Part shown: piece after piece, positions 36,979-41,542 of the stretch | Position numbering within the stretch: position 1 is the first letter of the stretch | Layout of the letters: each line of letters opens with the position of its first letter | DNA from: Deltaproteobacteria bacterium RIFCSPLOWO2_12_FULL_60_19 | Lineage (GTDB): Bacteria > Desulfobacterota > Binatia > UBA9968 | NCBI GenBank assembly: GCA_001798595.1 | Contig: MGSS01000094.1 | Span: 1-55,265, forward strand | Reading direction: 5' to 3' | DNA length: 55,265 nucleotides | Translations under genes and position numbers: made by a program | The notes under the pieces: generated by a model | Told to the model about the DNA's origin: nothing | The model's database searches: none | Seen by the model: only the letters and a program-made list of their open reading frames with translations

Positions 36979-37938
36979 ATGCGCATCGCGGTTCCCGACC
37001 TGGTCTCCAATTCCTACTTTCCGGCCATCGCCGCCGCGGAGTTGGGCTTCTTCAAGGCCGAAGGGCTCGACATCGAAAAGGTCGAACTCCTCTTTCCGGT
37101 GCCGAAGACGATGGAGGCGCTGCACGATGGCACGCTCGATTTCGTCGCCGGCTCGGCGCATGCGACGCTGATGGCCTTTCCGGATTGGAAAGGCGCAAGG
37201 CTTTTAGCCGCTTTGGGCCAGCGGATGTATTGGTTCCTCGTCCTGCGCGCGGACCTCGGCGCCAAGCGCGGCGACATCCAGGCCGTCAAAGGTCTCAAGA
37301 TTGGCGCGGCGCCGGGCGTCGACTATGGGCTGAAGCGCCTCTTGCTCGAAGCCGGCATCGACCCTGTGCGCGATCAGGTCCAGATCGGTCCTGTTCCGGG
37401 CGCGACCGGCGCTACCGTCTCCTTCGGCCTCACCGCGGCCAAGGCGCTGGAAGAAAAAAAAATCGACGGCTTTTGGGCCAATGCGATGGGGGCCGCGCTC
37501 GCCGTGCGCCGGCGCGTCGGGACGGTCGTCCTCGACGTGCGGCGCGGCGACGGACCTCCGGCCGCTCGCAACTACACCTTCCCCGCTTTAGTCACGACGG
37601 AGCAGCGAGTCCAACGCGAGCCGGCAAGCGCCGCCGCCGCCATACGGGCGATCGTGCGCGCCCATCGGGTGCTGCGCGACGATCTCGGACGCGCGACGGA
37701 GGTCGCTCGAAAGATTTTTCCGCCCACGGAGACGCAGCTCATTGCCGAGCTGATCAACCGCGACCTTCCCTACTACGATGCGACGATCTCCGAAGAGGCC
37801 GTGAGCGAGATGAATCGCTTCGCCCAGGATATGGGGCTCCTCTCCGGGCCGGTGGCGTACGATCAGGTCGTGGCCACGCAGTTTCGCAACCTGTGGAAGA
37901 GTGACGGGGTAAGGGGCCACCGGGATGGCGAAAGCTAA
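36979..37938 (+). CDS. NMT1/TauA-type substrate-binding protein without a signal peptide
   Basis: A 319-residue type II periplasmic-binding fold: MRIAVPDLVSNSYFPAIAAA, ELGFFKAEGLDIEKVELLFP, ALHDGTLDFVAGSAHATLMA, GLKIGAAPGVDYGLKRLLLE and the hinge-crossing KALEEKKIDGFWANAMGAAL. The family normally delivers aliphatic sulfonates, pyrimidine precursors or nitrate to ABC permeases. Here the mature domain begins at residue 1 with no Sec or lipoprotein signal, and no permease or ATPase gene is near, so it may act in the cytoplasm as an enzyme or sensor. It overlaps radA by 14 bases. Confidence 0.75.
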   Translation: MRIAVPDLVSNSYFPAIAAAELGFFKAEGLDIEKVELLFPVPKTMEALHDGTLDFVAGSAHATLMAFPDWKGARLLAALGQRMYWFLVLRADLGAKRGDIQAVKGLKIGAAPGVDYGLKRLLLEAGIDPVRDQVQIGPVPGATGATVSFGLTAAKALEEKKIDGFWANAMGAALAVRRRVGTVVLDVRRGDGPPAARNYTFPALVTTEQRVQREPASAAAAIRAIVRAHRVLRDDLGRATEVARKIFPPTETQLIAELINRDLPYYDATISEEAVSEMNRFAQDMGLLSGPVAYDQVVATQFRNLWKSDGVRGHRDGES

Positions 37939-39286
37939 AGTCGTCTACTCCTGCCAGAATTGCGGCTTCCAGTCGCCCAAGTGGCTGGGAAAATGTCCCG
38001 ATTGCAATCAATGGAACACGCTGGTCGAGGAAAAATTCGAGCGGACGGCTCACCCGCGCGACGAGTTCAATCTCGGCACCAAGGAGAGCCCGGCATCGAT
38101 CGCCGAGATCTCAACCGCGGAAGCGGGCAGGGCCCTCTCCGGCATCGGTGAGTTCGACCGCGTGCTCGGCGGCGGGCTGGTTCCCGGCTCGGTCACGCTG
38201 ATCGGCGGCGATCCCGGCATCGGCAAGTCAACTCTTTTGCTGCAAGCCTTCGCCGCGCTGAGCCAAAGCGGCCTTTGCTGCCTCTACGTCTCGGGAGAAG
38301 AATCGCAGCGGCAGATCAAGATGCGCGCCGAGCGGCTCGGCATCGTCTCGCCGAAGCTGTTGATTCTGAGCGAGACGTCGCTCGAAAGAATCCTGGAGCA
38401 GGTCAAGAAAAATAAGCCCGATGTCCTGGTGATCGATTCGATCCAGACGATTTTCACCTCCACCCTTCCTTCCGCGCCGGGCAGCATCGGCCAGGTCAGG
38501 GAATCTTCCGGCCTGATTATCACGCTGGCGAAAAAGAGCGGCCTCAGCGCCTTTCTCATCGGCCACGTGACCAAAGACGGATCGCTCGCCGGCCCGCGCG
38601 TGCTCGAACACATGGTCGATACCGTGCTCTATTTCGAGGGCGACAGGGGGCACAACTTCCGGATTCTGAGGGCGATCAAGAACCGCTTCGGCTCGACCAA
38701 CGAGATCGGCGTCTTCGAGATGAAGGAGAGCGGGCTTCGGGAGGTGAGCAATCCCTCGGAGATTTTTCTCCTGGAGCGGCCGCTGCACGCGCCCGGCTCG
38801 GTGGTGATCTGCAGCATGGAGGGGACGCGCCCGATTCTGGTCGAGCTTCAGGCGCTGGTCAGCCACTCTTTTCTCGCCGTCCCGCGCCGCACCACCATCG
38901 GCGTCGATCACAACCGCGTCGCGCTGCTGGTCGCAGTCCTGGAAAAAAAGATGGGGGTGAATCTGTTCAACCAGGACGTGTTCGTGAACGTCGCCGGCGG
39001 CGTGCAGGTGGAAGAGCCGGCGGTCGATCTCGGCATCGTCGGAGCGATCGCCTCAAGCTATCAGGAGAAGGCCATCGACGCGAAGACGGTCATCTTCGGC
39101 GAAGTGGGCCTCGCCGGTGAGGTCCGCGCCATCGCCCAGGCCGAGGCGCGCGTCAAAGAGGCGGGAAAGCTCGGCTTCGAGCGCTGTGTCCTCCCGCAGA
39201 GCAACAGCGCGCAATTGGGTCACGTCAAGAGCCCGGTGCTGATCGGCGTAAGCTCGCTGGCCGAGTGCTGGGAAGTCCTGTTCTGA
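37925..39286 (+). CDS. radA: DNA repair protein RadA/Sms
   Basis: A full-length 453-residue RadA: a zinc finger at residues 10-27 (C-x2-C-x10-C-x2-C in SCQNCGFQSPKWLGKCPDCN), Walker A GGDPGIGKST near residue 95, the RadA-specific KNRFG motif in AIKNRFGSTNEIG near 250, and a Lon-like C-terminal domain (DVFVNVAGGVQVEEPAVDLG). It is a RecA-related branch-migration helicase for recombination repair. It starts inside the end of the binding-protein gene, an odd partner that suggests transcriptional read-through rather than shared function. Confidence 0.94.
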   Translation: MAKAKVVYSCQNCGFQSPKWLGKCPDCNQWNTLVEEKFERTAHPRDEFNLGTKESPASIAEISTAEAGRALSGIGEFDRVLGGGLVPGSVTLIGGDPGIGKSTLLLQAFAALSQSGLCCLYVSGEESQRQIKMRAERLGIVSPKLLILSETSLERILEQVKKNKPDVLVIDSIQTIFTSTLPSAPGSIGQVRESSGLIITLAKKSGLSAFLIGHVTKDGSLAGPRVLEHMVDTVLYFEGDRGHNFRILRAIKNRFGSTNEIGVFEMKESGLREVSNPSEIFLLERPLHAPGSVVICSMEGTRPILVELQALVSHSFLAVPRRTTIGVDHNRVALLVAVLEKKMGVNLFNQDVFVNVAGGVQVEEPAVDLGIVGAIASSYQEKAIDAKTVIFGEVGLAGEVRAIAQAEARVKEAGKLGFERCVLPQSNSAQLGHVKSPVLIGVSSLAECWEVLF

Positions 39287-39328
39287 GGGCCAATAACTTC
39301 AACGCTGCTCGGTATCGAGACTAGAATT

Positions 39329-39721
39329 CTAAGGGGTTTGTTGGACCGGCCATTTATACAATATCGGCATAGCAGCATCTCTAAGGTTATTGAGCTGAGT
39401 TGCATTTAGCTGGCCACGAGATTTTGGTCCAAAAACTAGGGCATGAGCAGGATCCTCTGGAGTAGGCTCGCGTTCGATTGTGCAACCTAAAGAACGGGCA
39501 AATCCAGCTTCAAATTCAACAACGCTGTGTTTGGGATAATCTCTCGTTAGGATTTCGATCGTTGTTTCCGAAGCTATTGAAACGGAAAGCCCGTCGCGGG
39601 TATTGAAGGCTCCGGTACTTACGCGAGGTGGGTTGAGAGTCCAATCAATTTGCGACGGATGAACACGCCGCCACAAGCGTTCGCTGTTGTCGATTGAGGG
39701 GTCATTCTGCCTCTCGGGCAC
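39329..39721 (-). CDS. Third gene of the tRNA-side island: uncharacterised protein
   Basis: A 130-residue protein from a GTG start with an AGGA site. Segments that look conserved are SERLWRRVHPSQIDW, STGAFNTRDGLSVSI, VVEFEAGFARSLGCTIEREP and PEDPAHALVFGPKSRGQL. I recall a widespread family of unknown proteins with the same skeleton (RR-x-H-P-x-Q, SxAF, GFAR, PAHAxVxG), often carried on islands, but no function is attached to it. It lies 13 bases after the second gene. Codon and base use are AT-richer than the neighbouring genes, a sign of transfer. Confidence 0.65.
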   Translation of the reverse strand: MPERQNDPSIDNSERLWRRVHPSQIDWTLNPPRVSTGAFNTRDGLSVSIASETTIEILTRDYPKHSVVEFEAGFARSLGCTIEREPTPEDPAHALVFGPKSRGQLNATQLNNLRDAAMPILYKWPVQQTP

Positions 39722-39734
39722 AGCGTTTTCCTAA

Positions 39735-40289
39735 TCAAGCGGCTACCTGCATTGAGTCTGAGGAAAGAAGCCATAGAAAGAGCGGACGAACGTCATCCGT
39801 GAGATGAAGGCGATCTTCCCGGTGCGGTTCTCCCGCCTCCATTGTTAAATACTCGACTGATCCGTCATCGAGGATCTCCAATTCAAGTACTCGCGACCCA
39901 ATCTCCCATTCCAGCTGTAACCCGCCTCCCGATATCGGGACAACGCGCGGAGCAATAAAGTATTCAATGGTAGTACTGGTTAAAATCGCCATCGCAGTAG
40001 TCGCAGCGGCGACAGTAGGCGGGGGGCTACCATAACTGTCCCAATTTTCCGGAAGCGAGAGAACTTTTTTCAATGTCTTTATTCCGTGAATCTGCCACTC
40101 ACTAAGGGTCTCAGTAGGAACGGCACTATTCCATTGCGCGTAGCTAACCGGATTCACAACAATCGGTGATGCGTAGGTTAAACCCGAACCCGATGCAACA
40201 ACAGTGGAGGTGAAATTAGAACTGCCGCTTCCCATAATGGCTATTCCTGTTCCCGTGTACTTAGCTGAAGCGAATTGTCGGAACGTCAT
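39735..40289 (-). CDS. Second gene of the tRNA-side island: uncharacterised protein with an LPENWDSYG motif
   Basis: A 184-residue protein whose ATG at 40289 overlaps the upstream stop by four bases (ATGA) and has a GGGGGAG site six bases before it. Residues 1-60 are rich in Ser, Thr, Gly and Ala. The body has KKVLSLPENWDSYGSPPPTV, then PRVVPISGGGLQLEWEIGSR and VLELEILDDGSVEYLTM. I remember the W-D-S-Y-G plus GGxQLEW pairing from other unknown island genes, but nothing about function. Tight coupling to the TIGR04255-like gene implies the two proteins are made together. Confidence 0.65.
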   Translation of the reverse strand: MTFRQFASAKYTGTGIAIMGSGSSNFTSTVVASGSGLTYASPIVVNPVSYAQWNSAVPTETLSEWQIHGIKTLKKVLSLPENWDSYGSPPPTVAAATTAMAILTSTTIEYFIAPRVVPISGGGLQLEWEIGSRVLELEILDDGSVEYLTMEAGEPHREDRLHLTDDVRPLFLWLLSSDSMQVAA

Positions 40290-41095
40290 ATTTTTCTCCC
40301 CCAAAAGTCGTGCATGTCTTTAGCCGTCAAATCCGTAAAACCTCGGACAATCCATTCATGTCCTAGGTCGAACCACTCTAAAACATGCTCCATGTCGGCC
40401 GATTCTGGCTTTCCTCGTGCCGTAAGATTTAGTTGCAGAATCTCTTTGGCATCCTGTGTAATCGCTGGTTGCATCTGTATATGAAGTCTTCCTCTTTTGT
40501 CGGGTAACCCGTACCTGGCACCGATGTTTATCGATTCGGGCGCCGAAAGAAATTTGCCTGAGTACTTGCCTGACCAGCATGAAATGACTTTGTTTAATTC
40601 CCCGTAAGAATTCCAGCCCTGCCCTAACTCGATATGGTTCACATACGTTATTTCGCATTGATTGATTTCGGGCTTCCCAAGATCTGCTTCTTCTAAAAAT
40701 TTACAAAATGTTTTCCACTCCTGACTAAAACTAGGTTTAATTCTATCGTAGTGAACGTACACGTCCTCGGGCTTCAGCTTTCGCCAATTATGTATAAAGC
40801 GGTTTGTTTGGACCTGCGTAAGCATGCGTCCGGATTTGTCGATAAACCAGCACCGAACATCTGGAATTGAGACTAATTCCACTCCCAATTTTGCTTGCAC
40901 GAAGCGCTCAGTCTCAAATTGCTCCATTACAGTAGGTAAGGGAGGCTGCACCTGGAAATCAGGATAGTTATCGCGTATCTTTGCCCAGTAAAGCCCAAAA
41001 TGGGGAATAGAAAATTTGACCAGGGGCGAAAACTGGACACCTAGATAAGTTTCAACAACCGGGGGTCGGTCATAATCCGGAGTACGTTCTGGCAC
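40286..41095 (-). CDS. First gene of the tRNA-side island: TIGR04255-family protein
   Basis: A 269-residue protein from a GTG start (AAGGTG seven bases upstream). The start PDYDRPPVVETYLGVQFSPL and the C-terminal DLGHEWIVRGFTDLTAKDMH fit the sporadically distributed TIGR04255 family, whose function is unknown. The DNA is visibly AT-richer than the rest of the window, with runs such as CTTCTAAAAATTTACAAAATG, pointing to horizontal acquisition. It opens a three-gene unit behind its own promoter (41116-41143), and a perfect palindrome GCACAGCTGTGC (41092-41103) covers the start codon. It lies next to tRNA-Leu, a classic island site. Confidence 0.75.
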   Translation of the reverse strand: MPERTPDYDRPPVVETYLGVQFSPLVKFSIPHFGLYWAKIRDNYPDFQVQPPLPTVMEQFETERFVQAKLGVELVSIPDVRCWFIDKSGRMLTQVQTNRFIHNWRKLKPEDVYVHYDRIKPSFSQEWKTFCKFLEEADLGKPEINQCEITYVNHIELGQGWNSYGELNKVISCWSGKYSGKFLSAPESINIGARYGLPDKRGRLHIQMQPAITQDAKEILQLNLTARGKPESADMEHVLEWFDLGHEWIVRGFTDLTAKDMHDFWGRKI

Positions 41096-41115
41096 AGCTG
41101 TGCACCTTGTCTAGT

Positions 41116-41143
41116 AGAATAGCACCGAAAACCCAGTTGTGAA
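41116..41143 (-). promoter_or_regulatory. Promoter of the three-gene island
   Basis: Minus strand -35 TTCACA (41143-41138, 5 of 6), 16-base spacer, -10 TATTCT (41121-41116, 4 of 6). The palindrome GCACAGCTGTGC follows at 41103-41092 over the start codon and could be an operator. Confidence 0.45.
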
Positions 41144-41417
41144 CAAGATGATCGCGCGATCCTGTGGCCTGATCTCAGGTATGTATATTGCGACGCCCCA
41201 ACGCGCTATATTTGTGGCCTTTTGCAAGAGTTAGGTGCATTATAAAACCCACCGATGAAGAATGCAACTTCATTCTCCCTGCGAGTAGGGTCAAATCCAG
41301 ACGCATTTCTGTCCTTATTCTGTGCCCAACTCATTAAGACTATGTCACGCTCAGCACGAGACAACGCCTCAAGGCAAATCTGTGATCTTGCGGCCAAAAG
41401 ACGACACTATTGTAAGG
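41144..41417. other. Gene-free AT-richer stretch between the island and the tRNA
   Basis: Two 63-codon frames cross here on opposite strands (41206-41397 minus, 41255-41446 plus), neither with a ribosome binding site nor a recognisable family. It may hold the decayed end of a former gene or an attachment-site region; I can support nothing more. Confidence 0.3.
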
Positions 41418-41446
41418 TTGACGACGTCACAGCTCTAAGCTATTGA
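41418..41446 (+). promoter_or_regulatory. Likely promoter of tRNA-Leu
   Basis: TTGACG at 41418-41423 (5 of 6), a 17-base spacer and TATTGA at 41441-41446 (weak). Initiation would fall a few bases before the mature tRNA 5' end at 41457. Confidence 0.4.
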
Positions 41447-41456
41447 ATTTGGACAC

Positions 41457-41542
41457 GCCGGAGTGGCGGAATGGCAGACGCGTCGGACTCAAAATCCGAT
41501 GGAGGCAACTCCGTGGGGGTTCAAGTCCCTTCTCCGGCACCA
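41457..41542 (+). tRNA. tRNA-Leu (anticodon CAA), CCA encoded
   Basis: An 86-base class II tRNA: acceptor GCCGGAG pairs with CTCCGGC, the anticodon arm is TCGGA-CTCAAAA-TCCGA with CAA at the anticodon, the long variable arm is TGGAGGCAACTCCG-like, the T arm is GGGGGTTCAAGTCCC, and the discriminator A is followed by encoded CCA. It reads the UUG codon. It flanks the AT-rich island at 39.3-41.1 kb. Confidence 0.95.

Follow-up and report, generated by a model that had tools for sequence, protein, structure and literature searches.

We analysed a 55,265-nucleotide stretch of DNA (contig MGSS01000094.1 of Deltaproteobacteria bacterium RIFCSPLOWO2_12_FULL_60_19), referred to here as the window, and concentrated on an island of three open reading frames (ORFs), T, G2 and G3, the first of which encodes a protein of the TIGR04255 family. 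A preliminary description of this DNA had regarded the island as a transferred cassette whose products act together, perhaps in defence or conflict. Its genes are as follows.

41095-40286, minus strand: T (TIGR04255), 269 amino acids, GTG start; the shared first component
40289-39735, minus strand: G2 (NWDSYG-domain protein), 184 amino acids counted from ATG; its start overlaps the stop of T
39721-39329, minus strand: G3, 130 amino acids; predicted ADP-ribosyltransferase (ART) fold, putative toxin
39329-41095, minus strand: the island, comprising the three ORFs T, G2 and G3

T and G2 share a four-base ATGA overlap and 13 bases separate G2 from G3, so that the coordinates agree with the three tightly packed, same-strand genes described earlier. 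The description of the island as AT-richer than its surroundings was also borne out. Its G+C content is 0.479, which falls below the minimum (0.556) of 496 segments of equal length taken at 100-base steps elsewhere in the 55 kb (mean 0.6075, standard deviation 0.018), and third-position G+C is 0.43-0.48 in the island genes against 0.79-0.83 in three neighbouring genes. The source genome holds a single copy of T, which matches the NCBIfam model TIGR04255 over its full length (70.7 bits against a cut-off of 30; profile positions 2-252 of 252). A Pfam search with T, G2 and G3 gave no matches at E≤1.

Co-occurrence of the three genes and exchange of the third

A profile made from an alignment of four T proteins was scanned over GTDB genomes and yielded 69 loci, and profiles for G2 and G3 were built from the neighbouring ORFs. 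T, G2 and G3 follow one another in that order at 48 of the 69 loci, and G3 lies downstream at 53; both counts include the near-duplicates L030/L031, L040/L041 and L074/L079 as well as L023, where G3 lies 1.5 kb beyond G2, and three of the loci end at a contig edge. Judged by their titles, the loci come from Armatimonadota, Nitrospirota, Gemmatimonadota, Planctomycetota, Acidobacteriota, Pseudomonadota, Thermodesulfobacteriota, Myxococcota, Nitrospinota, Actinomycetota and several candidate phyla, a spread that agrees with the proposal that the three products belong together. The spacing from T to G2 ranges from -73 to +21 bases and is -4, -8 or -19 in 29 of 53 cases, some starts being uncertain. 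The nearest relatives of T are from Armatimonadota (63%; L020, where the contig ends) and Nitrospirota (58%). Two types of G2 that look different merge into one family (hhalign probability 100), although the second profile had already taken in members of the first type, so that this result is not independent evidence.

Among 247 genomes of the window's own phylum, a close T was found in 5, the G2 profile matched in 9, the G3 profile in 8 and both G2 and G3 in 7, the G3 of G161 and the T of G094 being marginal; in two genomes with G2 and a sub-threshold G3, a weaker G3 adjoins (L115, L116). At five loci (L014, L015, L112, L115 and L016) the first gene differs from T. Four of these first genes encode proteins of 208-245 amino acids, lie before G2-G3 and are unmatched by the T profile (L014 2352-3065, L015 5923-6660, L112 1023-1712 and L115 1690-2316); they are suggested to be further partners or very distant relatives of T. 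On a Mycobacterium plasmid the T-G2-G3 trio adjoins a MobF relaxase and is annotated as TIGR04255 and two hypothetical proteins. One of 72,556 plasmid records matched T, whereas the window's G2 and G3 and a relative's G2 found no match in the plasmid records. A scan of genome contigs with the window's G3 alone returned nothing.

Members of the wider TIGR04255 family occur at 28 loci, spread over 22 of the 247 genomes. All 27 loci with downstream sequence have T, a small middle gene (whose product is called X below) and a third gene; the 28th ends at a contig edge. The third genes fall into the classes ART (8), QGD (5), DUF7689 (4), HEPN-like (3), PIN (3), HicA-like (3) and MazF (1). Among the representatives scanned against Pfam, those of MazF (PemK/MazF, 2.2e-13), PIN (9.8e-12 and 8.7e-9, two of two) and DUF7689 (1.4e-40) scored above the cut-off.

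Two of these classes were noted in their own right. Members of the QGD family, named for its QGD and CD motifs, stand in the toxin slot after TIGR04255 at L125 (2614-3285) and L140 (2418-3041), and further members are third genes at L145 (556-1188) and L052 (7213-7821). DUF7689 proteins, with a YNCIAWAA motif, stand in the same slot at L126 (590-1033) and also at L128, L129 and L136. The term DUF7689 was not found in the open literature; most subscription papers lay outside that search, so novelty is unproven.

A maximum-likelihood tree of T proteins implies at least 10 changes of third gene, where the minimum would be 6 and shuffled assignments average 22.5. The third gene is therefore both clustered and exchanged on this tree, which used 78 of 96 proteins (8 partial or duplicate sequences and 10 without a recognised third gene, L020 among them, were dropped). 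The pair L125 and L127 illustrates such an exchange. Their T proteins are identical at 218 of 257 residues, and their third genes, QGD and MazF respectively, are unrelated (score 26, shuffle mean 28). Their X proteins share 47 of 82 residues over positions 1-82 (score 230, shuffle maximum 52), whereas the tails that follow are unrelated (score 20, shuffle mean 21). The MazF-type tail of L127 recurs in four further genomes of 148, in one of which (L215; 59% over 41 residues, E 4e-13) it lies directly beside a MazF gene, T not being recognised there. A tail is likewise common to the middle proteins at L124 and L088, which are of PIN type (21 of 49 residues, score 105, shuffle maximum 51). Since the N-terminal part stays with T while the tail and the third gene change, these comparisons suggest a middle protein with one part for T and another for the toxin. 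In G2, by analogy, the part that goes with G3 would be the NWDSYG domain, which fits the PADLOC model PDC-M32A, where the same domain stands behind another N-terminal domain and has PDC-M32B as its partner.

Predicted folds of T and G3 and the resemblance of G2 to PDC-M32

Structures were predicted with AF2 for T and G3. The G3 model has a pLDDT of 92.8, and the first fifteen rows of its Foldseek search are KptA/Tpt1 chains, one of which we take to be 1wfx, and the effector AvrPphF, at a best E of 0.043 and a probability of 0.99. VIA ranked KptA at Z 7.6 (root-mean-square deviation, rmsd, 2.9 over 89 residues), AvrPphF at 6.8, Tse2 at 5.7, CC0527 (presumably a DUF952 protein) at 5.6, DarT at 5.1 and TreTu at 5.0, along with further ART-type toxins; these values are middling, yet nearly all the upper rows belong to one superfamily, which we take to be that of the ARTs. 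In ARTs the active-site residues are R/H on strand 1, S/Y on strand 2 and E on strand 5. In an alignment of 60 G3 proteins, from which near-duplicates and fragments were omitted, R18 and S46 are each conserved in 58 sequences and H93 in all 60, and these residues stand on the first, second and fifth of the longer strands, equated with those of ARTs by order and not by superposition. G3 would thus resemble the C-lobe of Tpt1/KptA, DarT, Tse2, DUF952 and TreTu in its predicted ART fold. It differs from them in aligning to about residues 80-187 of the KptA/Tpt1 chains, so that the KptA N-lobe is missing, in a sequence identity of 8-18%, and in having His for Glu on the fifth strand. We treat G3 as a predicted ART-fold protein and a putative toxin that would be expected to use NAD+. 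None of 47 G3 members matched a known ART family in Pfam, and a PDB sequence search with G3 gave nothing below E 0.87. A profile link between G3 and DUF952 was dropped, as a single genome of 118 had DUF952, which is not enough to build a profile.

The model of T has a pLDDT of 93.4. Its best Foldseek match in the PDB is chain U of an RNA polymerase III complex (2.8e-4), taken as TBP, followed by a TBP-TAF1 structure (1.2e-3); in the viral library an unnamed first match (1.5e-7) precedes giant-virus proteins of the early-transcription-factor, TFIID and TBP kinds, which begin at 3.2e-6. The best named matches are thus TBP-type proteins in both libraries, and the order of strands and helices in T agrees with the duplicated beta-alpha-beta4-alpha saddle of TBP, at low TM-scores (0.24 in the PDB). 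VIA placed guanido kinases first among the 50 rows listed for T (best Z 9.2, rmsd 4.2, 186 residues). SecB is not among the 50 rows listed for T in Foldseek or VIA, an absence that does not exclude it; EspG chaperones match weakly (Foldseek E 0.011), and a match to HopQ (E 0.016) was set aside as chance. T is taken here as a duplicated beta-alpha-beta protein that, on its predicted structure, would be TBP-like at most in fold. It matched no PADLOC model at E≤1. The name TIGR04255 was not found in the open literature, and as most subscription papers were outside the search, novelty is unproven here as well.

G2 matches, with its residues 72-162, positions 264-354 of the 375 of PADLOC PDC-M32A (E 5e-9), and 27 of 45 members of its family match the best PDC-M32A model at E≤0.01. 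For G3 the corresponding resemblance to PDC-M32B is weak (E 0.01 in one search and unlisted at a limit of 0.01 in another), while 10 of 47 family members match the best PDC-M32B model, the best at 3.2e-9. By sequence, PDC-M32, a phage-defence candidate, is the closest description of G2 and G3. G2 is a putative antitoxin of G3. The two arrangements differ in that PDC-M32A has an N-terminal domain (positions 1-219) which G2 lacks, its match being confined to 264-354, and in that T is a separate gene outside the PDC-M32 model. The earlier view that all three families are unassigned is accordingly partly wrong, in view of the likeness of G2 and G3 to this candidate pair. A single paper naming PDC-M32 was located; it reports matches in Sinorhizobium prophages (PMC12429752). 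No functional test of PDC-M32 was found in the open literature, and the term PDC does not occur in the main text of the PADLOC server paper (PMC9252829). A match of G2 to HigB (E 0.5) was set aside as chance.

The N-terminal domain of PDC-M32A was also observed in proteins of 303-307 amino acids at L006 (1213-2136), L007 (1243-2166) and L008 (1186-2097), in each case followed by a gene that by eye is PIN-like; genes resembling restriction-modification or helicase genes lie nearby at L007 and L008, again by eye. These may represent another exchangeable partner. A search for full-length PDC-M32A in 142 genomes around an Afipia relative gave three matches, all to the C-terminal part only.

Accessory position between radA and tRNA-Leu(CAA)

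The island lies in the following setting.

37925-39286: radA, flanking the G3 side of the island
41457-41542: tRNA-Leu(CAA), flanking the T side of the island
39287-41456: the interval between radA and tRNA-Leu(CAA) with the island, 2170 bp
41092-41103: perfect 12-bp palindrome GCACAGCTGTGC, spanning the start codon of T
41150-41161: perfect 12-bp palindrome GATCGCGCGATC, upstream of T

We searched for radA in 29 genomes, the source genome among them, obtained matches in 28 (two of them weak), and compared 15 longer stretches 3' of radA from 14 genomes. At five loci in four genomes of the same family, radA and tRNA-Leu(CAA) are 84, 132, 140, 173 and 236 bp apart. In 6 of the 15 stretches, one of which represents another family of the order, they are separated by 1.7-5.2 kb with other genes between, and in 4 no tRNA-Leu was found, two of these stretches stopping less than 0.7 kb from radA. 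The window's T, G2 and G3 had no match in the 15 stretches at E≤1e-5. Because the interval varies in this manner (84-236 bp in relatives against 2170 bp here), the island is accessory and is not inherited by the whole lineage. The low G+C content, together with the short, island-free intervals of relatives, shows that the island is foreign, in line with the transferred cassette proposed earlier. When the exact junctions of the insert were sought, none of the five short intervals could be aligned to it. No integrase-like ORF was seen by eye in the 2.2-kb insert.

Integration by way of tRNA-Leu is not supported for this island, which lies 5' of the tRNA and where no att-like copy of the tRNA-Leu end was seen. 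In the family at large tRNA-Leu(CAA) is probably an integration site, since genes resembling tyrosine recombinases lie directly 3' of it at L198 (5779-6864) and L210 (1954-3054). Two other observations concern this region in relatives. At L202 (2490-5598) two ATPase-like genes, which by eye resemble AAA/DUF4143 and OLD/RecF, occupy the radA/tRNA-Leu interval and are possibly another defence insert. At L200 (751-2427), in a same-family genome without the island, a distant TIGR04255 module whose third gene is of QGD type lies 4.2 kb upstream of radA.

As for the palindromes, mononucleotide shuffling of the stretch gave an arm of at least 6 in 117 of 5000 trials. GCACAGCTGTGC is a possible operator, whose conservation in relatives was not seen.

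A proposed modular toxin-antitoxin-like family and its alternatives

We consider it reasonably probable, from the sequence comparisons and predicted structures, that the island is a member of a modular, tripartite toxin-antitoxin-like family with the order T, X and exchangeable toxin. By analogy with toxin-antitoxin-chaperone (TAC) systems, T may act as a chaperone or sensor that holds or stabilises X (here G2), as TAC chaperones do, and X would neutralise the toxin (G3). If T were lost, titrated or occupied, for example by an invader's product, X would fail and the toxin would stop growth, and a role in phage defence might follow. A broader proposal, which we advance tentatively and with somewhat less than even confidence, is that TIGR04255 marks a class of defence or conflict modules in which a TBP-fold universal sensor or chaperone grips the N-terminal part of many antitoxins and has under its control five or more unrelated toxin folds (ART, PIN, MazF, HicA-like and HEPN-like), the toxin and its matching tail being swapped as cassettes. 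As to the conflict or defence function anticipated by the preliminary description, indirect support comes from the known toxin folds that follow TIGR04255 elsewhere, whereas enrichment in defence islands was not supported.

Several results weigh against the modular reading. The third-gene classes began from motifs picked out by eye and were widened with profiles containing those seeds, and the third genes of L141 and L147, one QGD and one PIN, are fragmentary. The Pfam check covered ten representatives, four of which had no match, with QGD lacking support in the three scanned; HicA (3.4e-4) and HEPN (0.0042) remained below their cut-offs and the second HEPN representative gave nothing. DUF7689 and QGD, which make up 9 of the 27 third genes, carry no toxin evidence, and ten middle proteins compared with Pfam gave no antitoxin match, the L006 member among them being of PDC-M32A type. 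At the 69 loci with the closest relatives of the window's T, the third gene is ART in 52, QGD in 3 and PIN in 1, with none recognised in 13, of which three stop at a contig end and one, L023, has its G3 1.5 kb further on; by eye and uncounted, third genes are G3-like at L065, L069 and L083 and PIN-like at L022, and those of L032, L033, L034, L036 and L044 (Bryobacterales/Terriglobia) are without a class. No Foldseek match of G3 reached E≤0.001, and His93 occupies the usual Glu position of ARTs. The T tree has long branches that meet, for which the program issued a warning. A MazF gene was not recognised in the other three genomes with the L127-type tail, and the PIN-type tail, sought in 148 genomes, gave one weak match in a gene that is not antitoxin-like. 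Promoter-like sites in the region number 4 against 2.3 expected, which is chance level and leaves the promoter claimed earlier without support. The palindrome noted at the start codon is present, but in 69 relatives palindromes are no commoner than expected where T starts, and the idea of a conserved operator was dropped.

The surroundings of the genes bear on whether the module is an anti-phage abortive-infection system proper, tripartite like CmdTAC and triggered by a phage product, a reading to which we would give appreciable weight, a little short of an even chance. PADLOC lists relatives of G2 and G3 as a phage-defence candidate, the prophage matches of PDC-M32 (PMC12429752) and the three comparable roles in CmdTAC (PMC11618068) agree with it, and genes resembling type I restriction-modification genes lie near 5 of 13 loci by eye (L017, L018, L019, L114 and L117). 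Nevertheless, the PADLOC matches of 116 neighbouring proteins (thinned by hand from 163) and 114 controls (from 129, in random stretches of the same genomes) do not separate clearly. No neighbour family was shown above 2 members, against 5 in the control, and an apparent enrichment of 148 against 33 matching families was not counted, as overlapping models of few proteins can explain it. No relatives were found in phage records (window G2 and a relative's T) or, by pattern-based scans, in viral contigs (T and two G3 relatives). An addiction module of a mobile element without a defence role would suit the foreign G+C content, the accessory place in a variable interval and the copy beside the MobF relaxase; we regard this as unlikely, given the lone T among the plasmid records, where G2 and G3 found nothing, and an insert in which no integrase-like ORF was seen.

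Two other explanations concern what T itself does. T might be a nucleic-acid-binding autoregulator or sensor with a TBP-like saddle, leaving G2-G3 alone as the toxin-antitoxin pair, as in paaR-paaA-parE. The TBP-type matches in two libraries and the two palindromes at the T start speak for such a regulator; the palindromes are not in excess in relatives, structural likeness alone does not establish what a protein does, guanido kinases head the VIA list, and the X proteins of L125 and L127, whose N-terminal part stays with T, suggest protein contact, for which reasons we judge it rather improbable. The same guanido-kinase matches, with the KptA/Tpt1 C-lobes as closest structures of G3, could point to housekeeping or repair, G3 being a KptA-like enzyme of RNA or NAD and T an enzyme of guanido-kinase-like fold that binds nucleotides. 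This is very improbable in our estimation, since G3 lacks the KptA N-lobe, a close T is sporadic (5 of 247 genomes), and the third gene is exchanged with PIN, MazF and HicA-like proteins.

On the preferred interpretation of a modular toxin-antitoxin-like family, T, G2 and G3 gain testable roles, PDC-M32 would become one toxin pair of a larger set, and DUF7689 and the QGD family are flagged as candidate toxins. The new part is the constant partnership of T, from a family hitherto known by a number alone, with exchangeable toxin-like genes.

Among known systems, CmdTAC also has three genes, with an ART toxin, an antitoxin and a third partner; its chaperone senses a capsid protein, upon which the antitoxin is degraded and the ART toxin freed (PMC11618068), and TAC antitoxins bear a separate extension for the chaperone (PMC6377645). 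There are also differences: CmdC is SecB-like whereas T looks TBP-like, and CmdT has an HY-[E,D,Q] triad (PMC11618068) where G3 has R, S and H. Panacea (DUF4065) is a single conserved domain that goes with many unrelated toxins (PMC8832971), as TIGR04255 appears to do, but it forms part of the antitoxin, whereas T has a gene of its own in first place, and an antitoxin-like gene separates it from the toxin. TIGR04255 may provide a second case, beside the SecB-type TAC systems, of one kind of partner going with several toxins.

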